Source: Candidatus Peregrinibacteria bacterium
GTDB lineage: Bacteria; Patescibacteriota; Gracilibacteria; UBA1369; 2-02-FULL-48-14
Assembly: GCA_018658105.1 (NCBI GenBank)
Contig: JABHVW010000001.1
Coordinates: 62,001-126,000, forward strand
Direction: 5' to 3'
DNA: 64,000 nucleotides
Position numbers and translations under genes: made by a program. The notes below the pieces were generated by a model, which was not told the DNA's origin, made no database searches, and worked only from the letters and a program-made list of their open reading frames with translations. Below, one piece after another: positions 3,828 through 35,540 of the stretch. Position 1 is the first letter of the stretch. Each line of letters begins with the position of its first letter.

Positions 3828-4736
3828 ATGAATTATCGCGCTATTATAAGAGATGCTTGGGTTATGACCCAGAGCAACAAAAAGCTAATTTGGACTTTTG
3901 CCTTTGTGCCTGCCCTTTTAACGACGATAGTTTTTATGGGCTATATGGTTTACCAGTTTTTTGCACTGAGAACTTCTGGGCTTTTTGGCGGTGAAACTAA
4001 AGATTTATTTTCGATTATTGCAAAAAAACTTTGGCAATTTATTGGGAATCACCCCGGAGTTGGAGTGTTTTTAATTGTAGTTGCATCGGTTTTAGGACTT
4101 GTTTGGCTTATGCTCCCTGTTTTCACTCAAGGGGCGCTTATACAACTGCTTGGTCGTGCTAGAAGAGGTGAAGAAATTTCAATATTAGATGGGATTGGGC
4201 TTGGCTTTAGGCGATTCCTGCAGCTATTTGAATACCACTTGGCGATTAAATCATTTGGATTTGTGAGTGTTTTCACGAATGCGGTTTTCTTTTTAAGGAG
4301 TCTTGGCCTAGAAGCCTTTGGAGTCTTTATTTGGATCTTCCTACTAATTTTTGTAGTTGGAATCTTTCTGACTTTGCTGTTCACCTACTCTGAATACTTT
4401 ATATGCCTGAATGATCAAGGAATGTTTAAGAGCATGATGGCGAGTTCATCTATGGTGGTGAGGCATTGGCATCACACCTTTTTCATGCTTCTTTTAATGT
4501 CATTTATCACACTGCGTATTGTAATAAACATTGCCTTTGCAATGCTGTTGCCTCTATTGGTGATGGGGCCGATTTTGTTTTTCACAAGTGTGACACTAGT
4601 AAAAATCGGAGTTGTAGTAGGTGGAATTGTTGGACTGGTTGGGCTCTATTTCGCTTCTTACTTTGTGGGAGTGTTCAATGTCTTCACGACTGCGGTTTGG
4701 ACATTCACATTCTTAGAGCTGCATGAAAAAAAGTAG
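3828..4736 (+). CDS. Polytopic membrane protein of unknown function
   Basis: 302 residues with about six hydrophobic segments: TFAFVPALLTTIVFMGYMVY near residue 30, then further segments around residues 85-105, 150-190, 225-255 and 260-295. The layout resembles the membrane domains found in uncharacterised bacterial proteins of about 300 residues, but I see no catalytic or transport motif. I chose the ATG at 3828 (MNYRAIIRDAW) over one six bases upstream because the -10 box CATAAT ends exactly 6 nt before it. The 3' end overlaps the convergent DUF3307-like gene by 24 bp. Confidence 0.8.
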   Translation: MNYRAIIRDAWVMTQSNKKLIWTFAFVPALLTTIVFMGYMVYQFFALRTSGLFGGETKDLFSIIAKKLWQFIGNHPGVGVFLIVVASVLGLVWLMLPVFTQGALIQLLGRARRGEEISILDGIGLGFRRFLQLFEYHLAIKSFGFVSVFTNAVFFLRSLGLEAFGVFIWIFLLIFVVGIFLTLLFTYSEYFICLNDQGMFKSMMASSSMVVRHWHHTFFMLLLMSFITLRIVINIAFAMLLPLLVMGPILFFTSVTLVKIGVVVGGIVGLVGLYFASYFVGVFNVFTTAVWTFTFLELHEKK

Positions 4737-5273
4737 ATATAGCGTACAGAAGAAAATAATTCTTCTAAGCATTCCAATGTAATCTGCTTGGTACTCTAGA
4801 TGTTTTTGCTTTTTAAGTTTGAATTGATGTTTTGTTTTGTCCCATACATATGAAGAGAAAAGAATTCCAATAACTAATATCAATAATGGACCTGAGTAAT
4901 ATATTCGCTCAATTGAATCTATAAGAGGAATTAGACTTAGTGCTGTTAGCGCTTTAGATATGCAATATAAAACTGCAATGTGGAAGGTTTGATCTACAAA
5001 AAATGGGATCGTGCTTTTATCTTTATTAAACTTCTTGTCGAACTCAATCTTAATTATATCTTGGATATAATGTAGGTGGAAAAGTATCCCGATTAAGAAC
5101 CATGTAAGTGCGTGTCCCCAATATGGATAAAGGAGAATTGCAGTAAAAAATACAACGATTAAGGCGTGGAAGAATGTTCCCTGCCATCCTTTTTTCTTAT
5201 GCTCAATCATGGAGTTCGGCTGGAAGACGAAATCACCAAGGATGTGACCGATAAGTAAGTGGAATAAAATCAT
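4713..5273 (-). CDS. DUF3307-like membrane protein
   Basis: 186 residues with several membrane segments. The N-terminus LIGHILGDFVFQPNSM resembles DUF3307 proteins (a gHllgDFllQp-type start), a bacterial membrane family of unknown function. Histidines recur in the membrane part (FFHALIV, LFHLHYIQDII). The start codon overlaps the stop of the cyclic-nucleotide-binding gene as ATGA (5270-5273), so the two are probably translationally coupled and share the promoter at 5684-5712. The functional link is inferred from this overlap only. Confidence 0.75.
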   Translation of the reverse strand: MILFHLLIGHILGDFVFQPNSMIEHKKKGWQGTFFHALIVVFFTAILLYPYWGHALTWFLIGILFHLHYIQDIIKIEFDKKFNKDKSTIPFFVDQTFHIAVLYCISKALTALSLIPLIDSIERIYYSGPLLILVIGILFSSYVWDKTKHQFKLKKQKHLEYQADYIGMLRRIIFFCTLYLLFFMQL

Positions 5274-5677
5274 TGTGAATTATTTTTGTTTTTTCTATCT
5301 AAATATGCTGCCTGAACTTTTTCTGAAATTTCTGGGCTTTTACTCATTAGCTCACCGAAGTCCTCTTTCTTTAGAACAAAGATTTCACAATCTGAAAGAG
5401 TTTCTGCAGCAGCCATGCGAGGTTGGTCTTCTATTAAGGCCATTTCCCCGAAAAAGTCGCCTTCGCCAAGTTGTGCAAGTTCGCCAGTTTCATTGAAAAT
5501 TCGCAGAACACCGGTTTTAATAATGTACATTGAATCACCCATTACACCTTGTTCGAAAAGAATGTGGTGTGCTGGGAAATATTCCATGTTCACGTGCTCA
5601 ATGATGCTTTTATGTTCAGCCTCACTTAATGCGTGGAACAAAGGAACGGTTCTGAGAATGTTTAAAATTAAATTCAT
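5270..5677 (-). CDS. Single-domain cyclic nucleotide-binding protein
   Basis: 135 residues that form essentially one cNMP-binding beta-barrel of the CRP/cAMP-kinase type. The phosphate-binding cassette is visible as FFGEMALIEDQPRMAAAE: the Gly-Glu pair and the Arg are the usual contacts to the ribose and phosphate of cAMP. There is no DNA-binding or kinase domain, so it is probably a small cAMP (or cGMP) receptor acting through a partner. The window also encodes an adenylate cyclase (11064-13187), a plausible source of ligand. It overlaps the DUF3307-like gene by four bases and ends in TGA. The -10 box TATAAT ends 6 nt before the ATG. Confidence 0.88.
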   Translation of the reverse strand: MNLILNILRTVPLFHALSEAEHKSIIEHVNMEYFPAHHILFEQGVMGDSMYIIKTGVLRIFNETGELAQLGEGDFFGEMALIEDQPRMAAAETLSDCEIFVLKKEDFGELMSKSPEISEKVQAAYLDRKNKNNSQ

Positions 5678-6050: not shown

Positions 6051-6097
6051 ATGCGGACTTGCCCTGATTGACCTTATTTAGGTACAATCCTGGCGAT

Positions 6098-8482
6098 ATG
6101 AACAGTTATAATCCAAATGAAAACGAGGCAAAATGGCAGAAAGCCTGGCGAGAGTCAGGGATTTTTAAAGCTGATTTAGAGAATAGTGAGCGGCCGAAAT
6201 ACTATAATTTGACGATGTTCCCCTACCCTAGTGGCGACAAGCTGCATATTGGGCATTGGTATAATTATGCTCCGGTTGATACTTGGGGACGTTATATGAA
6301 AATGAAGGGTTTTGAAGTTTTTCAGCCTATGGGATTTGACTCATTTGGCTTGCCTGCGGAAAATTATGCGATTAAAACTGGGGTTCATCCTGCTGAAACT
6401 ACTCGAACGAATATTGATAAAATGAAAGAGCAAATTGCTGCGATTGGAGGCATGTATGACTTGGATTTGAACTTAGAAACCAGCTCGCCTGAATATTATA
6501 AATGGACTCAATGGGTGTTTTTGCAATTGTACAAAAATGGCTTGGCCGAGCGGCGCGAGGCTCCTGTGAATTGGTGTACTTCATGCCAAACTGTTTTAGC
6601 AAATGAGCAAGTTGTTGAGGGAATTTGTGAGCGTTGTAAAAATGAAGTTATCCGCAAAAATCTTACTCAGTGGTTCTTTAAAATTACGGATTATGCCGAG
6701 CAATTGTTGGATTATGAAGGGCTGGATTGGCCTGAGAAAACGATTGCGATGCAGAAAAATTGGATTGGTAAAAGTGAAGGTGTGAATATTAATTTTAAGA
6801 TTGCAGATAGTGAAGATTCTTTAACTTGTTACACAACAAGGCCAGACACTTTATATAGTGTGACTTTTATGGTTATTGCTCCTGAGCATCCTTTGGTTGA
6901 GAAATTTATTTCTGGAACTGAGTATGAAAAGGAGGTGCGTAAGGTTACTAAAGAGATTCAAGGACAAACGGATATTGAAAGGACTTCGACTGGGGGGAAA
7001 GACAAATTGGGTGCATATATTGGAGTTGATGTGATTAATCCTGCGAATGGAGAGAAAATCCCGGTTTATATTGCGAATTTTGCTTTGATGTATGGAACTG
7101 GGGTTGTGATGGCAGATGCACATGATGAGCGAGATTTTGAATTTGCACAGAAATATGACATTCCATTGAAATTTGTAGTTTCAGAGGATGGAAGTGAGAT
7201 TGATCCAAAAGATTTTGATGAAGCTTATGTTGATGATGGAATTTTATTTAATTCTGGTGAGTTTACAGGTATGAATAACCGCGAAGCTCTGCCTAAAATG
7301 GCTGAATGGATAGAAAAAGATGGCTTTGGTGAAAAGACTATTAATTTCAGATTACGAGATTGGCTAATTTCTAGGCAGCGCTATTGGGGCGCCCCTATTC
7401 CAATTATTTATTGTGAAAAATGTGGCGAAGTGCCGGTGCCTGAAGAGGATTTGCCTGTGGTTCATCCGCATATTGAGGACTATGTTCCTAAGGGGCAATC
7501 GCCTTTGGCTGGTGCTGAAGATTTTGTTAATGTTAATTGCCCGAAATGTGATTCTGCTGCGAAACGTGAAGTAGACACAATGGACACATTCGTTTGTAGT
7601 AGCTGGTATTTCTTGCGCTACCCGGATGCGATGAATAGCGCTAAGGCATGGGAAAAAGAGCATGCCAACAAGTGGATGCCTGTGGACATGTATATAGGTG
7701 GGCCAGAGCATGCATGTATGCATCTTTTGTATGCGCGCTTTATTCATAAGGCTATGAATAATTTTGGTTTTGTTGATTCGAAGGAGCCGTTTAAGCGTTT
7801 GGTTCATCAAGGAATGGTGACTAAAGATGGTGCAAAAATGAGTAAGTCTAAGGGGAATGTGGTTTCGCCTGATGAATTTGTTGAAAAATATGGAAGCGAT
7901 GTATTCCGCATGTATTTGATGTTTATGGGGCCATTTACAGATGGTGGCGATTGGAATGACCAAGGAATTACTGGTGTTGCTCGTTTTGTTGATAGGTTTT
8001 TCCGAATGATGCAGATAGATGGCGAAGCAGATGATGCTTTGGTGCATGGTGCGGTGAAACGTGCTGGAGAGGCGGTGGAAAAAATGAATTTCAATATTGC
8101 GATTGCGGCTTTGATGGAGCTTACGAATTCGACTTTTAAAACTGGAATGAATACTGGGCAAAAAGAAATGGTTGTGCGGGTGCTTGCGCCACTTGCGCCG
8201 CATCTGGCTGAGGAAATCTGGGAAATGCTTGGCCATAAAGAAAGTGTGTTCTTGGCTGAATGGCCAGAAGCAGATGAGAAGTTTTTGGTGACTGATAGCG
8301 TAACTTATGCGGTTCAAGTGAATGGCAAGTTGCGAGCGACTTTGGAGCTCGCAAAAGAGCTGGGCAAGGAAGAGGCGCTGGAGGCGGCTCGCTCCTTGGA
8401 GAATGTGGCTAAATATTTGAAAGATGCCGATGTGAAGAAAGAAATCTTTGTGCCGGGTAAGATTATTGGCTTTGTAGTGTAA
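6098..8482 (+). CDS. leuS: Leucyl-tRNA synthetase
   Basis: Class Ia aminoacyl-tRNA synthetase that charges tRNA-Leu. The 794 residues include the HIGH motif (YPSGDKLHIGHWYNYAPVDT), a CP1 editing domain with the threonine-rich TTRPDTLYSVTFMVIAPEHP, Cys pairs of zinc-binding character (CTSCQTV, CERCKNE, CEKCGEV, CPKCDSA), the KMSKS loop (GAKMSKSKGNVVSPDEF) and an anticodon-binding C-terminal domain. I start at the ATG at 6098 (MNSYNPNENEAKWQKAW), where the family begins. A -10 TACAAT (6083-6088) with TTGCCC (6059-6064) lies 9 nt upstream. A 317-codon frame antisense to the 3' half is a shadow. Confidence 0.97.
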   Translation: MNSYNPNENEAKWQKAWRESGIFKADLENSERPKYYNLTMFPYPSGDKLHIGHWYNYAPVDTWGRYMKMKGFEVFQPMGFDSFGLPAENYAIKTGVHPAETTRTNIDKMKEQIAAIGGMYDLDLNLETSSPEYYKWTQWVFLQLYKNGLAERREAPVNWCTSCQTVLANEQVVEGICERCKNEVIRKNLTQWFFKITDYAEQLLDYEGLDWPEKTIAMQKNWIGKSEGVNINFKIADSEDSLTCYTTRPDTLYSVTFMVIAPEHPLVEKFISGTEYEKEVRKVTKEIQGQTDIERTSTGGKDKLGAYIGVDVINPANGEKIPVYIANFALMYGTGVVMADAHDERDFEFAQKYDIPLKFVVSEDGSEIDPKDFDEAYVDDGILFNSGEFTGMNNREALPKMAEWIEKDGFGEKTINFRLRDWLISRQRYWGAPIPIIYCEKCGEVPVPEEDLPVVHPHIEDYVPKGQSPLAGAEDFVNVNCPKCDSAAKREVDTMDTFVCSSWYFLRYPDAMNSAKAWEKEHANKWMPVDMYIGGPEHACMHLLYARFIHKAMNNFGFVDSKEPFKRLVHQGMVTKDGAKMSKSKGNVVSPDEFVEKYGSDVFRMYLMFMGPFTDGGDWNDQGITGVARFVDRFFRMMQIDGEADDALVHGAVKRAGEAVEKMNFNIAIAALMELTNSTFKTGMNTGQKEMVVRVLAPLAPHLAEEIWEMLGHKESVFLAEWPEADEKFLVTDSVTYAVQVNGKLRATLELAKELGKEEALEAARSLENVAKYLKDADVKKEIFVPGKIIGFVV

Positions 8483-8759: not shown

Positions 8760-9347
8760 CTACTCTACTTCTAGTGGGTCAGGCTCTTCATTGATTTCAA
8801 CAGTTCCGCCGTGGATGCTGAGGGTCATTTCTGTTGCGAACTCGTCGTCATCTGTGTGGAAACGGAAAGTTTTTTCAATAGATGCGCTTGAACAATCTTT
8901 GTTGTTGAAACAAATTTCGCCATATGGTGGGAAATAAAATACAAGAAGATTTCGATCTGCAACCATATTATCGATTATCGAGAAATCCTCTTCTGTCATT
9001 GAATCAAAATCGACAAGAGTGAGATTTTCTTGAGGTAAAGGATCTGCACCGGGCATATCTAAATAGGCATCGAGGCCGAGGCCATTTTCTTTGATCATTA
9101 TTCGATAATATTTGACTGGATAATCAATTCCATCGCCTTCATTTGTGCGAAGTTGGTTTGAAAGTGAGAGACTTCTGGCATTTTGCAAGACTCCAACAAT
9201 CTCATTTTGGACGGCGTGGAAATTTCCGCGCTTACGAATTTTGTCTATGTTTAGAGCAAAACCCATCGACAAGATTGCCACCATGGAAGTTACAACAATG
9301 ACCTCAATTAATGTGAAAGCCGGTTTGGTGTGGCGAGCTGATTTCAT
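8760..9347 (-). CDS. Pilin-like protein with type IV prepilin signal (GspH/pseudopilin type)
   Basis: 195 residues. A short basic leader (MKSARHTKPA) precedes the prepilin cleavage motif A/FTLIE with Glu at +5, then a hydrophobic helix (VIVVTSMVAILSMGFAL) and a globular domain with acidic C-terminus (EEPDPLEVE). It is expected to be processed by a prepilin peptidase and join a type IV pilus or pseudopilus. I start at the ATG at 9347; an upstream ATG at 9377 would add ten residues and overlap the -10 of the divergent gene. It is back-to-back with a second pilin-like gene at 9384, only 36 bp between the starts. Confidence 0.82.
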   Translation of the reverse strand: MKSARHTKPAFTLIEVIVVTSMVAILSMGFALNIDKIRKRGNFHAVQNEIVGVLQNARSLSLSNQLRTNEGDGIDYPVKYYRIMIKENGLGLDAYLDMPGADPLPQENLTLVDFDSMTEEDFSIIDNMVADRNLLVFYFPPYGEICFNNKDCSSASIEKTFRFHTDDDEFATEMTLSIHGGTVEINEEPDPLEVE

Positions 9348-9348
9348 A

Positions 9349-9377
9349 TGGCCATATTTTACCACAGGCCTTATCAT
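9349..9377 (+). promoter_or_regulatory. Leaderless-type promoter of the 9384 pilin-like gene
   Basis: TGGCCA (9349-9354), N17, TATCAT (9372-9377), with 6 nt to the ATG at 9384. On the minus strand TAAAAT ends 8 nt before the divergent start at 9347, so both pilin genes would share this 36-bp gap. Confidence 0.5.
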
Positions 9378-9383
9378 GTAACC

Positions 9384-10013
9384 ATGTTTGCACGCCGCGC
9401 CGAATCCTTAATTGAAACTGTTATTGCTATCACTGTTATTGTGGTAGCGACGACTGCTGGAATGTCATTATTGAGGACTTCTCTGCTTGGGAATGAAGTT
9501 ATTGGAGAAAAGATTGTTGCGATTAATTTGGCGGTTGAAGGTATAGAGGCAGTTAGGAATCTGAGAGATTTGAATTATTTAAAATTTGGTTCTGACCCTG
9601 ATAATTGTTGGGATGCCTATTTTGCAGATGAACTTGCTGACTGCCCTTTTGATAAATTAGAAGATGATGCGAGTTATTTATTGACTAGAGAATTCTTTTC
9701 TTACCCTGCATTCAGATGGTTATTAACTGAGATGGATCCTTTAGATGAAGATCTTGGTTGGGAGTCTTTGTATTCCATGGAGCTTGATATTGATCATGAT
9801 GGAGAGTTGAATGTTATTCATTCATATGGGCCGTCTGGCGATATAAATCCTCTTTTGACCTTGGTTCGTGAGGATGCATTTAGACGATATGTAACCATTG
9901 ATTATTATGATGGGCCTGCGCAACTTTTTTATGTTACCTCAACGGTAGAGTGGACTGTAAAAGGCGTGCCAAAAACTATTTCTTTAACTCGAACTATTGC
10001 GAATATTTACTAA
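9384..10013 (+). CDS. Pilin-like protein with prepilin signal
   Basis: 209 residues. The leader MFARRA is followed by ESLIE with Glu at position +5, matching prepilin-peptidase substrates, then a hydrophobic helix (TVIAITVIVVATTAGMSLL). The body is acidic, with Asp/Glu-rich loops and Cys residues (DNCWDAYFADELADCPF) that could form a disulfide. I chose the ATG at 9384 over one at 9348 because the -10 TATCAT lies 6 nt upstream and the resulting leader has typical prepilin length. It overlaps the next pilin-like gene by 17 bp. Confidence 0.8.
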   Translation: MFARRAESLIETVIAITVIVVATTAGMSLLRTSLLGNEVIGEKIVAINLAVEGIEAVRNLRDLNYLKFGSDPDNCWDAYFADELADCPFDKLEDDASYLLTREFFSYPAFRWLLTEMDPLDEDLGWESLYSMELDIDHDGELNVIHSYGPSGDINPLLTLVREDAFRRYVTIDYYDGPAQLFYVTSTVEWTVKGVPKTISLTRTIANIY

Positions 10014-11064
10014 ACATTCAGCGGCTTCTTTTGTTGAAATGATTGTTACATTAACTATTTTTGCTGTGGTTGCATCTTTGTCGATGACTGTTTTATCTAA
10101 TTCGATGAGATCTACAAAAAAGATCCAGGCACAGGCATATTTATATACTGAAGCGCATGCTTTAATGGATCAAATCACTCGAGTTGTTGAGCGAAGTGCA
10201 ATTGATTATGAAGCTTATTACGATAGAAATGTGTATGCAATTATTGAAGATGGTGAAACTATTGAGTGGATGAAAACACATCGATTTCACACTCCTGAGT
10301 ATGGGGTTTATGGGAAGGCATTTTTTAATCCTGGTACAACTGGTGGCCCCCCTGATGGTGGGCCGGATGATTCTGGACCATATGGCAGCATTGGTGGATA
10401 TGGTGAATATTGTGTAGATGGGGTTGGGGTTTATCCTGACGATTGTGATTCTCCGAGTTTTGAGACACAAGATACAAATACCTTTACCCATCCTTTTGTG
10501 GGAATTGCAGATTTTGCTGGAGCATATGAATCTCTACCGGAAGATATGAATGCGATGTGCAGACGTGAGGTTGGAGATCCAGTTGATTTTTGTGATTTCC
10601 CAGAAAATTATGTACACGAAGAGCTGATTTTGATTAGCTCAACAGGTGACGAAAGGACAGTCTTTAAAAGACGTGAGAAAGATTTGTACCCAGATGATTA
10701 TGACATGAAGCGGGTGGATATGTTGGGGGAAGATACGGACAGTGATGGCTTCGTGGATACGTGGGAGTGCACGCCGGTGATTTATGATTGTGGTGATAAC
10801 TTCACTCCGAATTTGGCTGAGTTCGAGGTTATTACACCTTCGAATGTCTCTGTAGATGCATTTAATTTATATATCACACCTTTGGATGATCCTTATCGTG
10901 CGATTTTTGAAAGTGGTAGCCAGCTTCAGCCACAAGTGACTATTTTTATGACAATGAGTTTGAGTGAAGGGTTTGCAGAGGGAATTTTGGGTGAACTCCC
11001 GAATATTTCTATTCAAAGAACAATTTCGACTGGGGTTTATCAAGAAATTAAGACTTTTGAATAA
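9997..11064 (+). CDS. Pilin-like protein with TTG start
   Basis: 355 residues. The N-terminus MRIFTKHSAASFVEM has the prepilin pattern SFVE followed by a hydrophobic helix (MIVTLTIFAVVASLSMTVL). A Gly/Pro/Asp-rich insert follows around residues 115-145 (PGTTGGPPDGGPDDSGPYG). Near residue 245 there is a calcium-loop-like DTDSDGFVDTWEC, as in type 3 repeats. The only start that keeps the signal is a TTG at 9997, inside the preceding gene. Its TAA overlaps the ATG of the adenylate cyclase as TAATG, so all three plus-strand genes form one operon. It may be a minor pilin or a presented adhesin. Confidence 0.75.
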   Translation: MRIFTKHSAASFVEMIVTLTIFAVVASLSMTVLSNSMRSTKKIQAQAYLYTEAHALMDQITRVVERSAIDYEAYYDRNVYAIIEDGETIEWMKTHRFHTPEYGVYGKAFFNPGTTGGPPDGGPDDSGPYGSIGGYGEYCVDGVGVYPDDCDSPSFETQDTNTFTHPFVGIADFAGAYESLPEDMNAMCRREVGDPVDFCDFPENYVHEELILISSTGDERTVFKRREKDLYPDDYDMKRVDMLGEDTDSDGFVDTWECTPVIYDCGDNFTPNLAEFEVITPSNVSVDAFNLYITPLDDPYRAIFESGSQLQPQVTIFMTMSLSEGFAEGILGELPNISIQRTISTGVYQEIKTFE

Positions 11065-13187
11065 TGTTAGATAAAAAGAAATTATTGGCTTTGATTCTTA
11101 TAGTTTTCTTTGTGTCTTTTGGCGCCTTATTTTTAAGGGGCACGAGTGTGTTTGATGTGTTTGAAAAAAGGCTTAGCCATGGTCTTTATGATGAACGACC
11201 TTTAAATGAAAACATAATAATTATAGGTGTTGATGAACGAACTTTGATGGCTCCGAGCGAAGGTGGGCTTGGGCCGATGGGTGCTTGGCCAAGAGGTCAT
11301 ATGGCGAAAGTTCTTGAATCGATAAGGGCTAGTGGCTCGCATTCGATCTTTTTGGATTTTGTATTTAAAGGAAAGACGGAAACTGTTTCTTTGTTTGATA
11401 TTGCGACCATTTTTTCTGAGTCTGAAAATAATACTGATGTAATTGCTGAGCAGCTGAGTGAATATTTACTTGAAGAAAATCCTCAAGATGTGGCTTTTAA
11501 ATCTGCGCTTGGAGAAGATGTTTTTATGATTAAATATTCTGCGACTCAGCCTATTTTAGAGGGGAATCTATTGCACGGCGGCGACGAAGCTGGCTCTTAT
11601 GAATTTTTTACTGAAGCTGCGCAGACTGCATTTTCTGAAGCTGTTACAGATGATAATGAGCAAGCAATTTACTCCTTACCTATTGGTTATAAACAAGGTG
11701 ATGATTTTGAAGAGAGCTTAGCTTTAATGATGGGTCGAGATTTTTTGTATAGAGATGAGTTGAGTGCTGGCACGTTTATTGAAAATGACAAATATTATTT
11801 ATTTGATGAGAGCAGAAAAATCCCTGTAGATAATGGGCAAATGCTCGTGAATTATGCTGGAGATTCATATAGCTTCCCGAGTGTTTCTTTTGTAGATGTT
11901 TTTAAAGGTAATATTGAAGATGATGCTTTTGATGGGAAAATTGTATTAATTGGTGCGACTGCGCCAATATTGCAGGATAGGCATTTCACTCCTATTGATC
12001 AGAATGTGCCAATGCCTGGGGTTGAAATTCAGGCTAATGCAATTCAGACTGTTTTAGATGGTCAATTTTTAAGCAAGCAGGGTCAAACAGGCTTTTCAAT
12101 TTTTGTTGTTTGCTTTCTGTTGATATCTACTTTTGCATTTTTATACTTACCAGTTTTGTTTGGTACAGGTGTTTTGATTTTAGAACTATTTATCTTCCCT
12201 TTTTATGTGGATCGCCTATTTAGTAGCGGTGTGATTCTAGATATTATTTGGCCTATTGCAGCCCTTTTGAGCGTATATTTCCTTTCTATGGTGTATAGGA
12301 ATTTCACGGAATTTAGAGAGAAACGAAAGATTAAATCTGCATTTTCTCATTATGTTTCTGCTGAATTGGTTCAACAAATTAGTGAGGATCCGAGTAGTTT
12401 GGTGCTTGGTGGCGAGAAAAGAAATATTACTGTGATGTTTATTGATTTTGAAAACTTCACAAATCTAACTGAAAAATTAGTTGCTGCAGAGTTGGTTCAA
12501 CTGGTTAATACATATTTTGATGCGCTTGCGAATGTGATAATGCGACATGGTGGAACTGTGGATAAATTTGAAGGTGATGCAATTATGGCTCTGTTCGGCG
12601 CTCCGATTGCGAGTGAAACTCATGCAAAAGATTCGTGTGAAACTGCGCTGGAAATTCGGAGTAAAATGGAGGAGATAAATAAGACGACTGGCGTTGATTT
12701 GAAGGTTAGATTGGGCATTGCAAGTGGCGAAGCGATCGTTGGGAATATGGGTAGTGCTGAGCGGTTTGATTACACGGCAATGGGAGACACGGTGAATATT
12801 GCGGCGCGGCTTGAGAGTGGGAATAAGTTTTATGGCACGCGGGTTTTGATGAATTCTGAAAATATGAAAGCTTGTGAAGACACAATGAATTTCAGACGAA
12901 TTGATAGAGTTCGTTTGAAGGGTAAAGCCGAAGCAATTGATATATATCAGCTTCTTGGCAGAAAGGGCTCAGAGAGCGATGCTGGGCGTGCAGTGATTGA
13001 GGAGTGGCATCAGGCTTTGGAATATTACAGGAATCAAGATTGGGCTGAGGCCGTGCAGCGGATGAAAAAAGTCTTAGAGAAATTGCCTGAAGATGGGCCG
13101 GCAAGTGCTTATTTAAAACGTATTGAGGAATTGAAAACCCAGCACATCGAGGGCTGGGATGGCACTTGGAATTTTGATAAAAAATAA
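11064..13187 (+). CDS. CHASE2-domain class III adenylate (guanylate) cyclase
   Basis: 707 residues that make cAMP (or cGMP) from the nucleoside triphosphate. An N-terminal membrane helix (residues 7-24) precedes an extracytoplasmic CHASE2 sensor (about 30-335), three membrane helices (345-412) and the cyclase domain (about 450-630). Metal aspartates D461 (FIDFENFT) and D505 (EGDAIMALFG) are present, as are the substrate pair K501/D569 typical of adenylate cyclases, N578 and the transition-state R582 (TVNIAARLES). A C-terminal helical tail (640-690) resembles a TPR. The ATG overlaps the TAA of the pilin-like gene, so it is probably co-expressed with pilin genes. The only cNMP receptor in the window is at 5270-5677. 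Confidence 0.93.
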   Translation: MLDKKKLLALILIVFFVSFGALFLRGTSVFDVFEKRLSHGLYDERPLNENIIIIGVDERTLMAPSEGGLGPMGAWPRGHMAKVLESIRASGSHSIFLDFVFKGKTETVSLFDIATIFSESENNTDVIAEQLSEYLLEENPQDVAFKSALGEDVFMIKYSATQPILEGNLLHGGDEAGSYEFFTEAAQTAFSEAVTDDNEQAIYSLPIGYKQGDDFEESLALMMGRDFLYRDELSAGTFIENDKYYLFDESRKIPVDNGQMLVNYAGDSYSFPSVSFVDVFKGNIEDDAFDGKIVLIGATAPILQDRHFTPIDQNVPMPGVEIQANAIQTVLDGQFLSKQGQTGFSIFVVCFLLISTFAFLYLPVLFGTGVLILELFIFPFYVDRLFSSGVILDIIWPIAALLSVYFLSMVYRNFTEFREKRKIKSAFSHYVSAELVQQISEDPSSLVLGGEKRNITVMFIDFENFTNLTEKLVAAELVQLVNTYFDALANVIMRHGGTVDKFEGDAIMALFGAPIASETHAKDSCETALEIRSKMEEINKTTGVDLKVRLGIASGEAIVGNMGSAERFDYTAMGDTVNIAARLESGNKFYGTRVLMNSENMKACEDTMNFRRIDRVRLKGKAEAIDIYQLLGRKGSESDAGRAVIEEWHQALEYYRNQDWAEAVQRMKKVLEKLPEDGPASAYLKRIEELKTQHIEGWDGTWNFDKK

Positions 13188-14537: not shown

Positions 14538-14566
14538 AGTATAGAGCTAGAGCTCCTCTACTTCAA
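14538..14566 (-). promoter_or_regulatory. Leaderless-type promoter of tsaB
   Basis: Minus strand: TTGAAG (14561-14566), N17, TATACT (14538-14543), 6 nt, ATG at 14531. The -35 lies inside the coding end of the upstream gene. Confidence 0.7.
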
Positions 14567-17294
14567 CGCCTGAGTAATAATATTTGATAATCTCTTCGAA
14601 AGATTTGCCTTTTTGTGCGAGGGCTTCGGCGCCGCAGCCGGAAAGGCCTACCCCATGGCCCCAGAATGAATCTGCGGCGCAATGTGTGTCTGACACTGAA
14701 ACTAGAAATGGAGTGTGAGTCCAGCCCCAAACTTCTTGTGCGCTTTTTGTAGCGACACCATTTGATTGGCTGAAGTATGGCGTTTTAACGACTTCGCCTT
14801 TGTAAGTAACTACAAGGTCTTCTGTGGCTTCGACTGCATCTATAATGTCTTCGCTACGTTTTGTAAAATTGTGACCAAGATATTTTTGTGATGTATCTGG
14901 ATCGTCTTCTAGGTGATAAGGTTTGCCTGGGAATTTTTGATCTACAGTCATGTAATAATGTGCGTAACTACGTGCCAAAATGCTCATTACTTTTGCTTTT
15001 TCGCTGTGTGTGTCGCCAGATATTTCGGCTACACCTTTTAGGTAATCTTGCAGGTCTAATTCATTAATCAGTGTCATTTCACCGCTTACAAAAGCTAGCT
15101 CAATTATGCCGAGGAATTCGTTGTCGTTCAGGCTTGTGTTCCATGCTGGCCTTTGATCCATTGTGTAAACGCGGATTGCTGCTTCGTTTTCTGGGACGAA
15201 TCGAAGTGGACCGTTTACTGTCCATTTGTCGCCACCCGATCGTAGATAAAATTTGCCAGGTTCTGGCTCAGTTATGCGTACTCGGCTGTTGCCCGCGAAT
15301 GTTTTTAGCAGGGTTTGATCATCATAAATTGCGAATTTTTCACGTGAGCCGATTAGTGGTTCACCTACTCCGTTATCAGGGGTTAGTTTGATGCGGATCG
15401 CATCTTTGCTAACTGTTGTTAAGTTTGTTTCTTCAACTTCGATATCAATTTTATATGCACTTTTTGTGAGTTTCTTTTTCTTATTCAGTGGCCAAACTTC
15501 AAGTGTATATTCGCCAGGTTCATCTGGAGCAGTTACATTGAAGAATACTTTAGTACTTACATTTTTATTAACATTTTTCAGTACGAGTCTTGTGTCGTCT
15601 GCCTCTAGTTCGTCGTCACCTTTGTATTGAAGGTCGAAGCTATCTTTGCTCCATTTTGTATTACCTGTGTTTTTTATTTGGATCCACATGAGTCTTGTCT
15701 CACCAGGGCTCATTGGTGAATCCTCAGAATGTTCAAGGATTTTTGCATCATTGCTACTGCTTTTTGACTTCTCTTCTACTTCAATTTCTTCCTCTATATA
15801 AACTCCATATGTGACTTCTGCAACTTCTTTTCCGGCTACACTAATTTCTAAATCTAACTCTGCAAAACCACCATCGTCATCTGACTTTAGACTCAATTTG
15901 AATAAGCCAGATTTGCCAGCTGCAATTGAAGATGGACTGCTTGAGACACTAAGATCTACTAATTTATTTTTATTTTTTAACTTAAGTTTTGGACTATTCC
16001 AAGTTGATTTGGAATAATTTGTGAGACTAAAACTGACTGTTTTTTTGTCGTCTGCCTCCATGTAATCAAACTGACTTGATACATCGTTGTAGTCATCTTC
16101 GTCTAAAAGTTCACTGACGAAATCACCCATTTCATCAAGATAGTCATGAGTGTAATTACCTGGGCAAGCCGTTGCTGTTAGGTCGCGGTGGCCAAGAAGG
16201 TTTGAACTTTTTTCACCACGAAATTTGCTAGTTTTACCTGGATCAATTTCGTAATCTTCAGAAAGATCATAAATAAGATTTGCTAGGCTTTCAGCCATTT
16301 TACCCGGCATTGAATCTTCAGTGTGGTAGTCGCCAAGAAGTGCGATTCCAATTGTTCCGCCATTGTAACCTCCGGTGTGGCCGCCAATAACTTCTGGGCC
16401 GCCTTTTCGGCCTTCAAGAATTTTACCATCTGTTCCAATCAAATAATGGTAACCAATGTCACCCCAGCCTCTTGTGCCTGCGTGATAATTATAAATTGCT
16501 CGGCCAGCACGCTTTGAATCTGAAAGATATTTTGTGCTAGCAGTGTGATGAACCACGATCTTTTTTAGGTCGTCTTCATCTTGATATTGCAGTGGCCAAA
16601 TATAATTGCCATCTGAATCTTTATAACTAACGTCTATAACTTTTGCATTTTCTTCATCGTACCAATCAACTTGGTCTTCTTCGTTTTCCTCCTCTTCATA
16701 TGAATAATCATCATCGAAGTAAGCTGCACTTTCATTTAAAATCCAATCTTCTCGAGGAATAATTTTCGAACTAGTCTTTTTGAAAAGTGCAGTAAAGCCT
16801 TCAAGTGGCTGAACCTGCTCTTCTGTTGAGTCGTAGTTCAGGCTGATCAATTTGATCTTTGGAGTTTGAGCGCTATTTTCAGTGTTTAGGCCAACTCGAT
16901 ATTGAAAAGCATCACTTAACTCATCTGCAAAAAGGAAGCTCCATTCCGCATTGTCTGAACGAGGGCCGGAATGCTCATCTTTATGCATGTGTTCCCAATC
17001 TGTCCAAACTCCATTTGTATTTCTAAAACGCATTTCGATTTCTGCGGCCGTTTCATGTGAAATTTCCTCCATCCAATTCAGACTAAAAGTGTCTGAGGCA
17101 GGAACTTCGTAAATTTCAGAAATGAAGCTGCGGCTTGTTTGATAATGTGCTCCAGTAGTAATTACCGTCGCCATCGGCTCAAGCTGCAAGCTGATCTGTT
17201 GATTGAAATTGATTTGGCCTGCTTCATAACTACTTTGTAGAAGGAATGGGCTTAGTAAAGCGGCGAAAATAGCGAGAAATTTGAAATGTTTCAT
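14547..17294 (-). CDS. Exported N-acetylmuramoyl-L-alanine amidase (PGRP/amidase_2) fused to a SpoIID-type lytic transglycosylase
   Basis: 915 residues with an N-terminal signal peptide (MKHFKFLAIFAALLSPFLL). An amidase_2/PGRP domain (about 230-390) shows zinc ligands in VVHHTA (H249/H250), H369 (LLGHRDLTA) and C377 (CPGNY), plus RGWGDIGYHYLIG. Two Ig-like segments of the NEW3/CARDB type follow (about 400-640). A SpoIID domain (about 650-910) has the putative catalytic Glu (E757) in GVAEIS, FSQSNGVAT and HGVGLSGCGAEALA. It should cut both the stem-peptide amide and the glycan strand of peptidoglycan. SpoIID normally works beside a separate amidase; here the two classes are joined. The promoter TTGGGA-N17-TATAAT is 7 nt before the ATG. 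Confidence 0.9.
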   Translation of the reverse strand: MKHFKFLAIFAALLSPFLLQSSYEAGQINFNQQISLQLEPMATVITTGAHYQTSRSFISEIYEVPASDTFSLNWMEEISHETAAEIEMRFRNTNGVWTDWEHMHKDEHSGPRSDNAEWSFLFADELSDAFQYRVGLNTENSAQTPKIKLISLNYDSTEEQVQPLEGFTALFKKTSSKIIPREDWILNESAAYFDDDYSYEEEENEEDQVDWYDEENAKVIDVSYKDSDGNYIWPLQYQDEDDLKKIVVHHTASTKYLSDSKRAGRAIYNYHAGTRGWGDIGYHYLIGTDGKILEGRKGGPEVIGGHTGGYNGGTIGIALLGDYHTEDSMPGKMAESLANLIYDLSEDYEIDPGKTSKFRGEKSSNLLGHRDLTATACPGNYTHDYLDEMGDFVSELLDEDDYNDVSSQFDYMEADDKKTVSFSLTNYSKSTWNSPKLKLKNKNKLVDLSVSSSPSSIAAGKSGLFKLSLKSDDDGGFAELDLEISVAGKEVAEVTYGVYIEEEIEVEEKSKSSSNDAKILEHSEDSPMSPGETRLMWIQIKNTGNTKWSKDSFDLQYKGDDELEADDTRLVLKNVNKNVSTKVFFNVTAPDEPGEYTLEVWPLNKKKKLTKSAYKIDIEVEETNLTTVSKDAIRIKLTPDNGVGEPLIGSREKFAIYDDQTLLKTFAGNSRVRITEPEPGKFYLRSGGDKWTVNGPLRFVPENEAAIRVYTMDQRPAWNTSLNDNEFLGIIELAFVSGEMTLINELDLQDYLKGVAEISGDTHSEKAKVMSILARSYAHYYMTVDQKFPGKPYHLEDDPDTSQKYLGHNFTKRSEDIIDAVEATEDLVVTYKGEVVKTPYFSQSNGVATKSAQEVWGWTHTPFLVSVSDTHCAADSFWGHGVGLSGCGAEALAQKGKSFEEIIKYYYSGVEVEEL

Positions 17295-32821: not shown

Positions 32822-34131
32822 GCTTGCATTTGTCTATGAAAGTGATCGATGCGTCTGTTGCTCCAAATGTGGCGGTTTTCGATAGGGGTTTGTAAAAGAA
32901 GGCCTTCGAGGCTGCGGCAACGGCTTAAAGCAACGTAAACCTGGCCATGTGCAAAGGCTCCCCTGCCCAGATCGATCACCACTTTGTCGAAAGTTTTCCC
33001 CTGACTTTTGTGAATTGTAATTGCCCAAGCGAGCCGAATTGGATACTGGCGAAATGAGCCGACGGTTTCTTGCTTCATTTCATTTTTCTCGGCTTCCCAA
33101 TAATATTTGTGCAGCTCCCAGGTGTGGGGTTTGACCATTACAATATCCTCCTCGCCTTCGAGTTTTACGTGCAAAACATCTTCGGCCGTGCCGCCATCAA
33201 AATCAATTTTTGTGATAGTACCGATGCTGCCATTTACCCAGCGGCCCGCCATGTCGTTATTGAGCATCATAATTTGTGCGCCCTTTTTCAGCTCAAGATT
33301 TGCATTTGTGGGGTGATTTCTATTTTCGAATTCGCCGGAATATTCTGCATCGTAAACTTCACTACGATCATCCAAACGTTCAAGGCGCATCTTGTTAATT
33401 GTGTCGGCCGCTTTATTTGTGGTTGTGAGAGTTATGTATGAGTGATCGCTGCTTTGAAATTTTTGTGGATCGGCTAAAAGCCTAGAATTTAGAATGTCGA
33501 AATCCCAGGGTGTTGCTCTATTAGTGCGTATTTTATTTAAAACATTTACGAATTTATTGTCTTTTTGACGATAAATCTTTTGAAGCTCGAGCGAATCGAA
33601 TTGTGCATCTTGAAAGACCATTGCATCGAAAAAATATGGGCTAGCATATTCAGTTTTAAATCGTTCCTTTTCTTCTTGGCCAACCACAACGGGTGGAAGT
33701 TGGTGCAGATCGCCAATAAAGACCATCTGAATTCCGGCAAAAGGCTGATAACTGTTCAGAAATGATCGAAGAGCAACATCTATGCAATCCATAAGATCGG
33801 CACGCACCATTGAAACCTCATCGATTACCATTACATCTAGGTTTTCAAGGATTTTCATTAGGGTTTTGGACGGCCTTTCTCGGGCAGCTTTTTCAGGTGT
33901 GATATCTGGTGGGAATCCAAAAAATGAATGGATTGTTTGCCCCCCGACATTAAGTGCAGAAACTCCGGTTGGTGCAAGCACTACTACGCTTTTTTTTGTG
34001 GTTTGCTGAAAATGTGTGAGCAAAGTAGATTTACCTGTTCCTGCATTCCCAGTAATAAAAATGGAACTGCGGCTTTTGTTGAGCCGTTTTAAGGCTTCTT
34101 CGAATTTTTCATTGATTTCAATTTCTGACAT
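32818..34131 (-). CDS. Pif1/RecD2-like superfamily 1 helicase
   Basis: 437-residue DNA helicase: motif I GNAGTGKSTLL, VLAPTGVSALNVGGQTIHSF (motif Ia), VIDEVSMVRADLMD (II), FIGDLHQLPPVV (III), and the C-terminal AWAITIHKSQGKTFDKVVID and QVYVALSRCRSLEGL, typical of Pif1-like proteins. Its targets may be forks or structured DNA, by family. It has a leaderless-type promoter (TATAGT, 6 nt from the ATG) back to back with the SLH-M23 gene. The downstream ABC-F gene overlaps it by four bases; the functional link is unclear. Confidence 0.93.
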   Translation of the reverse strand: MSEIEINEKFEEALKRLNKSRSSIFITGNAGTGKSTLLTHFQQTTKKSVVVLAPTGVSALNVGGQTIHSFFGFPPDITPEKAARERPSKTLMKILENLDVMVIDEVSMVRADLMDCIDVALRSFLNSYQPFAGIQMVFIGDLHQLPPVVVGQEEKERFKTEYASPYFFDAMVFQDAQFDSLELQKIYRQKDNKFVNVLNKIRTNRATPWDFDILNSRLLADPQKFQSSDHSYITLTTTNKAADTINKMRLERLDDRSEVYDAEYSGEFENRNHPTNANLELKKGAQIMMLNNDMAGRWVNGSIGTITKIDFDGGTAEDVLHVKLEGEEDIVMVKPHTWELHKYYWEAEKNEMKQETVGSFRQYPIRLAWAITIHKSQGKTFDKVVIDLGRGAFAHGQVYVALSRCRSLEGLLLQTPIENRHIWSNRRIDHFHRQMQA

Positions 34132-34134
34132 GAA

Positions 34135-34163
34135 TGGACTATAGCATGAGCTTCCATTAATAT
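34135..34163. promoter_or_regulatory. Overlapping leaderless-type promoters of the divergent helicase and SLH-M23 genes
   Basis: Plus: TGGACT (34135-34140), N17, TAATAT (34158-34163), 6 nt, ATG at 34170. Minus: TATAGT (34138-34143) with extended TGC, 6 nt, ATG at 34131. The minus -10 overlaps the plus -35, and only 38 bp separate the two start codons. Confidence 0.65.
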
Positions 34164-34169
34164 TTAAAT

Positions 34170-35540
34170 ATGAGATTTTATTTGGCTTTGATTATTTCAA
34201 TTTTGATGGCGGGAAGTGCTTTTGCTTTTGTAGATTTAGATGAAAGTCATGAATATTTTGAGGCTGTTGATTATTGGAGTGATGCTTATGTTCTACAAGG
34301 TTACGACGATGGCAGTTTCGGGCCGAATGATTTTATTAATCGTGCTGAATTTTTAAAGTTAGTTTTGGCTGCGAATGAAATTGAATTAGATGGCGATGAT
34401 TTTGACTGTTTTTTGGATGTTGGCCGCGAATGGTTTGCGCCATTTGTATGTGCGGCGAAGGATGCAGGCTGGATTGAGGGCTACGCAGATGGCTTTTTTA
34501 GGCCTGCCGAGATCATTAATCGTGCTGAGGCTGCGAAAATCCTATTGGAAGTTTCTGGAATTGAATTATTTGAGAATGATATTTTTGTGGATGTTCCAGA
34601 TGGCATTTGGTTTGATGAGTATGCTCAAACATTGGGAACATTGACCTTAGATTTTGATGAAACTTTTAATCCGGACTGGAGTTTTAGTCGAGCGCAGGTT
34701 GCACAAATTTTGTTTGAATTGTTGACGGAGGAGATTGAGGTTGAGGTTGAGGAAGTTGTGGCTGATTTTGTTTGGCCCATAAGTGGAAGTACAAAACAGG
34801 ACGAGCTGCGTTCTGCGTTTGGGCCGCGTTTGCAAAATGGAAGTTATGATTTTCATCGGGGTGTAGACATTCCTGCAGATCGAGGAACAGATGTGCATGC
34901 GATTAATGGCGGCGAGGTTCATAGATTTTATTTTGATGGAGAAGATGGCAGCCCCTACCCTAACAGCGGAAATATTGTCATTTTGTCTCATGATGATGGA
35001 GATTTTTATTCTCTTTATGCCCATTTGGATAGTATTGAAAATATGGAGAGAGGAGATGAAATTAATCTTGGTGATGTGATTGGTGAAAGTGGTAGTTCTG
35101 GCACGGCGACTTGGGAGCATCTGCATTTTGAGATTCGAGAAAACAGCCTTTCATCAGATGATGAAGGCCACATTAATCCCTTGGGATATTTGCCTTACGA
35201 TGATGAGGACAATTATGAAATAAGTGTTTCTGAGGATTTGAACTTTAATATTATTGCCTACGATTATGAGTTAGATATTAATCGTATTGAAGTTCGAGTT
35301 TACGATAATGATGTTTTAATTGATGAGAAAATTTTAGATTTCAATGAGCGCTTGAGCTGCGGCAGTGATGATGAAGAGACGGATGGAATTTTGATTGAAC
35401 CTGAATCTTTTAGTAGTTCGCAGGCAAAATATGAAATAAATGTGGATTTCACTGAAATAAATCCATCTAGCGATTTGAGAATTGAATACTCTATTTATGA
35501 TCTAAACGGAGAAGTGGCATCTGGTGAGTTTTTAGGTTAA
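34170..35540 (+). CDS. Exported SLH-domain protein with LytM (M23) endopeptidase domain
   Basis: 456 residues. The signal peptide ends near ALA-type AFA/FVD (MRFYLALIISILMAGSAFA). Three SLH repeats (about 20-185) anchor it to the cell wall; YDDGSFGPNDFINRAEFLKL is the clearest. An M23 domain (about 205-330) has zinc ligands H229 and D233 (DFHRGVDIP), H285 (YAHLDS) and the H317-x-H319 pair (WEHLHFEI). A C-terminal beta domain (340-456) is not recognised. It should cleave peptide cross-links of peptidoglycan at the surface. The FG-GAP/SLH gene follows 10 bp downstream. Confidence 0.9.
   Translation: MRFYLALIISILMAGSAFAFVDLDESHEYFEAVDYWSDAYVLQGYDDGSFGPNDFINRAEFLKLVLAANEIELDGDDFDCFLDVGREWFAPFVCAAKDAGWIEGYADGFFRPAEIINRAEAAKILLEVSGIELFENDIFVDVPDGIWFDEYAQTLGTLTLDFDETFNPDWSFSRAQVAQILFELLTEEIEVEVEEVVADFVWPISGSTKQDELRSAFGPRLQNGSYDFHRGVDIPADRGTDVHAINGGEVHRFYFDGEDGSPYPNSGNIVILSHDDGDFYSLYAHLDSIENMERGDEINLGDVIGESGSSGTATWEHLHFEIRENSLSSDDEGHINPLGYLPYDDEDNYEISVSEDLNFNIIAYDYELDINRIEVRVYDNDVLIDEKILDFNERLSCGSDDEETDGILIEPESFSSSQAKYEINVDFTEINPSSDLRIEYSIYDLNGEVASGEFLG

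Follow-up and report, generated by a model that had tools for sequence, protein, structure and literature searches.

A CHASE2 adenylate cyclase in an old gene linkage with minor pilins and a large surface protein in Patescibacteria suggests a route from cell contact to cAMP

The window analysed here is a stretch of 64,000 nucleotides from a Candidatus Peregrinibacteria genome (1.12 Mb, 97% complete), whose group is made up of tiny bacteria that probably depend on a partner. The genes considered in this work lie in its first part:

4713..5273, minus strand: DUF3307 membrane protein, its gene sharing 4 bp with that of CNB
5270..5677, minus strand: single-domain CNB protein, predicted cAMP receptor (PF00027, 79.9 bits)
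6068..8482, plus strand: leucyl-tRNA synthetase (LeuS, named by sequence recognition), a landmark of synteny that separates CNB from the pilin-cyclase cluster
8760..9377, minus strand: minor prepilin H (GspH/FimU-like), A/FTLIE, divergent from I (motif, TIGR02532)
9348..10013, plus strand: minor prepilin I (GspI/PilV-like), A/ESLIE (motif, helix)
9997..11064, plus strand: minor prepilin J (GspJ/PilW-like), TTG start, A/ASFVEM (motif, orthologues)
11064..13187, plus strand: CHASE2-class III adenylate cyclase, 707 aa (Pfam, hydropathy)

As judged from its sequence, the product of 11064-13187 is a class III adenylate cyclase with a CHASE2 sensor, which bears out the initial annotation of this gene. 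Pfam CHASE2 matched residues 24-346 (126.8 bits, cut-off 26.3) and Guanylate_cyc residues 452-630 (94.7 bits, cut-off 21.9). A hydropathy count of the transmembrane (TM) helices gave four hydrophobic segments, and the predicted layout comprises an N-terminal TM helix, an extracytoplasmic CHASE2 domain, three TM helices, a cytoplasmic cyclase domain and a C-terminal TPR-like tail, the arrangement of sensor, TM helices and output domain that defines CHASE2 sensor cyclases. The metal and substrate residues D461, K501, D505, T571, N578 and R582 were invariant in 25 cyclase orthologues; they would supply the two metal Asp, the Lys/Thr specificity pair and the Asn-Arg transition-state pair, and this pattern is the one expected of an adenylate, not a guanylate, cyclase. 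The genome encodes no other CHASE2 protein and no other class III cyclase. A single-sequence AlphaFold model of it was too poor for use (pLDDT 39).

H, I and J all carry a class III signal (A/G and then an FxxxE-type motif) followed by a hydrophobic helix of ~18 residues, and it is by motif and helix that they are identified as predicted type IV minor pilins; the letters were given by gene order and motif. Profile scores were low: H reached 19.2 bits against Pfam N_methyl (cut-off 21.2) and 20.7 bits against NCBIfam TIGR02532 (cut-off 16.3), and I and J gave weak HMM matches only. The likely start of I is the ATG at 9384 (MFARRAESLIE), which is better than 9348, and H likely starts at an inner position, 9347. 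Two further pilin-like genes had been proposed to lie directly upstream of the J-cyclase pair; both genes exist, but H is divergent, on the opposite strand. Pilus-type ATPases are present in the genome. Elsewhere in the window, a weak T2SSE match interrupted by three in-frame TAA codons was seen at 33991-34395 on the minus strand (contig positions 95991-96395), perhaps a decayed fragment of a pilus or secretion ATPase or a chance match.

The stop codon of J (TAA, 11062-11064) overlaps the ATG of the cyclase at 11064, forming the TAATG described in the initial annotation. J is full-length with respect to its orthologues and keeps its natural C-terminus, and the TAATG is thus a true gene boundary; an assembly error at this junction is disfavoured, as J is complete and the contig extends over 222 kb. 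The direct junction is, however, peculiar to this genome. In relatives the usual order is prepilins H/I/J, then K (a PilX/GspK-like pilin), then BIG (a large surface protein) and then the cyclase, so that the usual upstream neighbour of the cyclase is a large, probably anchored surface protein and not J. K and BIG were not lost from the window genome: they adjoin each other at the end of another contig (C14), with BIG at L074 13540-15315, away from the cyclase, which implies that the TAATG overlap arose by a local rearrangement. On this contig three similar regulators, TrmB-type by resemblance, lie close together (L074 7470-10963), with K and BIG following after a few genes.

K is a pilin-like protein of ~400 aa that lacks Glu5 and has an invariant CNWNK in its family; in one member PilX_N scored 22.2 bits, below the cut-off of 25.5. 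BIG usually comprises 580-970 aa and is secreted, with a signal peptide that has a long n-region (read from the sequences by eye), and its repeats vary among PKD, MopE and thrombospondin type 3. It ends in a Cys motif, a TM helix and an Arg-rich end, and is probably a secreted, membrane-anchored surface protein. The MYXO-CTERM model TIGR03901 matched BIG at E <= 0.01 in 5 of 11 relatives, two of them above the cut-off of 20 (22.1 and 30.9 bits), and 3 of the 11 gave an MtsC match; the tail of the window genome's own BIG gave no TIGR03901 match. The window genome encodes one CPBP-family protease. Neither the BIG of six relatives nor that of the window genome matched the Pfam family of PilC/PilY (PilY1), family searches detected no beta-propeller in BIG, and a comparison of one BIG with the PDB matched only a short stretch, to a surface-associated (MopE-type) protein. 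BIG may act like PilY1, although it is not classed as a member of PilY1/PilC. In one relative (G002), an RHS/YD-repeat protein (L034 2-4051) is encoded just upstream of K-BIG-cyclase.

The order sample comprised 59 genomes including that of the window, and the cyclase was found in 35 of them; eight of these loci abut a contig end, leaving 27 assessable. In 18 of the 27, spread over seven families, the cyclase was preceded by BIG and/or minor pilins (G000, the window genome, and G001, G002, G004, G005, G006, G011, G016, G018, G021, G025, G027, G029, G041, G042, G045, G050 and G052). These tallies were read by eye; the BIG of G025 is on the opposite strand and that of G045 was judged by its tail. 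The complete H-I-J-K-BIG-cyclase series was present in three families: f1 (G004), f13 (G042 and G052) and f2 (G050), and the loci of G006 and G021, cut by contig ends within or beside BIG, are consistent with the same order. The remaining nine loci had neither BIG nor pilins directly upstream (G008, G012, G019, G023, G030, G037, G044, G054 and G055), and they include all those of family f15. Some genomes in which the linkage is absent keep K elsewhere, and G038 has K-BIG but no cyclase.

The linkage is maintained between cyclases of only 30-40% identity. In a cyclase tree the order's enzymes formed one clade (support 99), with one divergent second copy from G012 falling outside; linked loci occurred in all the main subclades, with six state changes in all. 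The tree was built by a quick method and several branches are weak, but its pattern fits one old gain of the linkage followed by about five losses. The pilin/BIG-cyclase gene link is real and old. The proposal that the cyclase forms a unit with pilins therefore stands as to the old linkage, found at 18 of 27 loci and in seven families, with a direct junction to J in the window genome only. Within the order, neither of the two observations named beforehand as fatal to the proposal was made: the linkage is not unique to this genome, nor does the cyclase usually stand away from pilins.

Outside the order the situation is different: no pilins adjoin the cyclase of sister orders, which implies that pili are not essential to it. 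In some families of the class the cyclase genes contain up to 46 in-frame TGA codons each, so TGA must be a sense codon there; this hints at the Gracilibacteria/Absconditabacteria part of Patescibacteria, in which the window would belong to a normally coded, Peregrinibacteria-like order. In the recoded families a one-TM protein is commonly encoded directly upstream of the cyclase. Three such FecR-like proteins were compared with Pfam FecR, giving 28.1, 23.4 and 21.7 bits; one of them passes the cut-off of 24:

L101 4298-5614, L104 7376-8656 and L102 4075-5418: one-TM proteins of FecR-like type, encoded immediately before the cyclase in sister families with recoded TGA

The FecR-like protein may be a second type of partner for the CHASE2 cyclase, seen sometimes. 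A search of the phylum sample matched 16 genomes, 8 of them from outside the class.

A single-domain cAMP receptor had also been assigned to 5270-5677, and as a predicted receptor it was upheld. The PF00027 match has an intact phosphate-binding cassette (FGEMAL..PRxA) whose Glu and Arg are kept in 12 of 12 single-domain CNB orthologues, and the closest solved relatives of its profile include the cAMP/cGMP-binding domains of PKA, PKG and SthK. The only other CNB match of the genome, a CRP-like regulator (L075), is disfavoured as a receptor because its cassette lacks both residues; the genome thus encodes a single canonical receptor, which is likely that of the cAMP made by the cyclase. In the order, PF00027 was found in 33 of 35 genomes with the cyclase and in 13 of 24 others (p=8e-4, relatedness ignored); among genomes at least 90% complete the cyclase/PF00027 counts were 31/0/9/8 (p=6e-5, relatedness ignored), and co-occurrence of cyclase and CNB across the class was 114/5/51/118 (p=1e-32, again ignoring relatedness). 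Apart from these counts, the CNB gene is no more than 2 kb away from the cyclase in 15 genomes and no more than 25 kb away in 25. Together, these data indicate that the single-domain CNB protein looks like a true genomic partner of the cyclase. The CNB-DUF3307 pair follows the cyclase directly in G001 and is beside it in other families too; in f24 CNB-DUF3307-cyclase are convergent and tightly adjacent, and no pilins are near. A literature search on DUF3307 returned almost nothing, a single paper on phage.

The gene linkage suggests that the touch of another cell is turned into cAMP, although proof of this is beyond its reach. In the mechanism that we propose, H, I, J and K would prime a type IV pilus and form its cap, and BIG, located either on the cell surface or at the tip of the pilus, would meet the partner cell; through the membrane, CHASE2 would read the complex of BIG and minor pilins once engaged, and cAMP made by the cyclase would bind the CNB protein, whose output would not involve DNA binding and possibly passes through DUF3307. 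LeuS (6068..8482) is outside this pathway. We infer that the genes are co-transcribed, that BIG or pilins physically touch CHASE2, that contact is the stimulus and that DUF3307 is the output. Taken jointly, the statements that the window locus is a remnant of an old H-I-J-K-BIG-cyclase cluster and that partner-cell contact is reported inside as cAMP via BIG/minor pilins, the CHASE2 cyclase and CNB form our preferred but tentative reading, which we hold at slightly less than an even chance. Against the contact mechanism stand the nine unlinked loci of 27, the absence of the cyclase from G038, the distance of K and BIG from the cyclase in the window genome, the lack of pilin neighbours outside the order and the absence of a beta-propeller match in BIG.

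The linkage could instead reflect co-regulation only, if cAMP controls or accompanies pilus production and CHASE2 senses an unrelated small ligand or the state of the envelope; the shared transcript would then provide timing, not a signal. The cyclases of sister orders and f15, which lack pilin neighbours, agree with this, as does the FecR-like protein that sometimes precedes the cyclase instead. On the other hand, what stands upstream is in many cases a surface or envelope protein (BIG, FecR), and this speaks for a relation of sensor and partner; moreover, the linkage persists at low cyclase identity; co-regulation alone thus seems rather doubtful to us. We regard as quite unlikely that the nearness has no functional meaning, the place of the cyclase beside LeuS, RsmI and TsaB being ancient and a single insertion having brought the pilin cluster there. 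In several families LeuS, RsmI, TsaB, CNB and DUF3307 do turn up again near the locus, G008 shows the series LeuS-cyclase-RsmI with no pilins, and part of the linkage signal may be old synteny. However, in a comparison of the neighbours of 15 loci, prepilins recurred in eight families (the pair of cases from f15 seems incidental) and K in seven, always on the cyclase strand and two to four genes upstream, more than TsaB (four families) or RsmI, LeuS, CNB and DUF3307 (three each); moreover, the K-BIG-cyclase block is also found at sites with no LeuS or RsmI within six genes (G016, G052). In the vicinity of the locus, 14547-17294 on the minus strand encodes a 915-aa fusion of Amidase_2, NBR1-type Ig and SpoIID domains, the Ig match falling just under the cut-off; RsmI and TsaB adjoin this protein in f1 and f4 relatives.

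A further view takes cyclase, CNB and DUF3307 as the real unit, a class-wide envelope signalling circuit in which the pilin linkage is a side branch of one order. The class-wide co-occurrence counts and the tight arrangement in f24 speak for it, but it offers no reason for pilins and BIG being more common beside the cyclase in the order than any other neighbour, and it is compatible with, rather than exclusive of, the contact mechanism; as a substitute for that mechanism we find it very unlikely. Returning to the contact mechanism, one version of it would be a one-step sensor in which the pilus-tip complex of minor pilins and BIG is the direct ligand of CHASE2, with no chemotaxis-type relay and with CNB acting on DUF3307. 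In the window genome no MCP-type chemoreceptor (PilJ) scored above the cut-off, the one fragment reaching 23.8 bits against 34.6, and this, together with the presence of pilus-type ATPases, makes a Pil-Chp relay unlikely. The one-step sensor as a whole is itself unlikely in our estimation; if true, it would represent a minimal contact-to-second-messenger circuit in Patescibacteria.

Our search of the non-subscription literature found no work joining Patescibacteria, adenylate cyclase and cyclic AMP. The conserved link between pilus-tip genes and the sole class III cyclase makes it testable how Patescibacteria notice a partner cell that they have met. The interpretation in the initial annotation is partly supported, and contact sensing converted to cAMP is a plausible hypothesis by analogy with precedents in Pseudomonas and Sinorhizobium.

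Pilus-dependent cAMP is known from Pseudomonas aeruginosa (PMC12607626). The P. aeruginosa system (FimU-PilV-PilW-PilX-PilY1, Pil-Chp, CyaB, Vfr) shares with the present locus a minor-pilin cluster with a large tip or surface protein, and pilus-dependent cAMP with a cAMP-binding receptor, the coupling of pilus and cAMP being predicted here from the genes. In contrast to P. aeruginosa, the minor-pilin cluster here includes the gene of the cyclase, whose own CHASE2 domain is the outward sensor; no relay by chemoreceptors was found, BIG has no PilY1/PilC Pfam match, and a lone CNB domain serves as the predicted receptor in place of a CRP-type regulator. In Sinorhizobium meliloti, CHASE2 cyclases sense the plant protein uL2 through the surface protein NsrA (PMC13001267). 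CyaD1/CyaD2/CyaK, NsrA and Clr resemble our case in combining a CHASE2 adenylate cyclase, cAMP and a CNB receptor, and in the need for a separate surface protein to sense a protein of the partner organism, which here is only proposed; however, the surface partner is an outer-membrane beta-barrel, there are no pilins, and Clr is a transcription regulator of the CRP family. As for pili in Patescibacteria, the beta-propeller minor pilin PilX2 of Saccharibacteria is needed for host binding (PMC12206443). The T4P-2 pilus with PilX2 likewise belongs to Patescibacteria and has a minor pilin specialised as a tip-type protein, but its adhesive domain is fused to the pilin, whereas here it would be a separate protein (BIG); that paper makes no mention of an adenylate cyclase. 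Finally, the architecture of the BIG tail is often like that of the MYXO-CTERM surface proteins of myxococci (TraA, MtsC-like) with their myxosortase, although these belong to another phylum and the sorting of BIG is putative.
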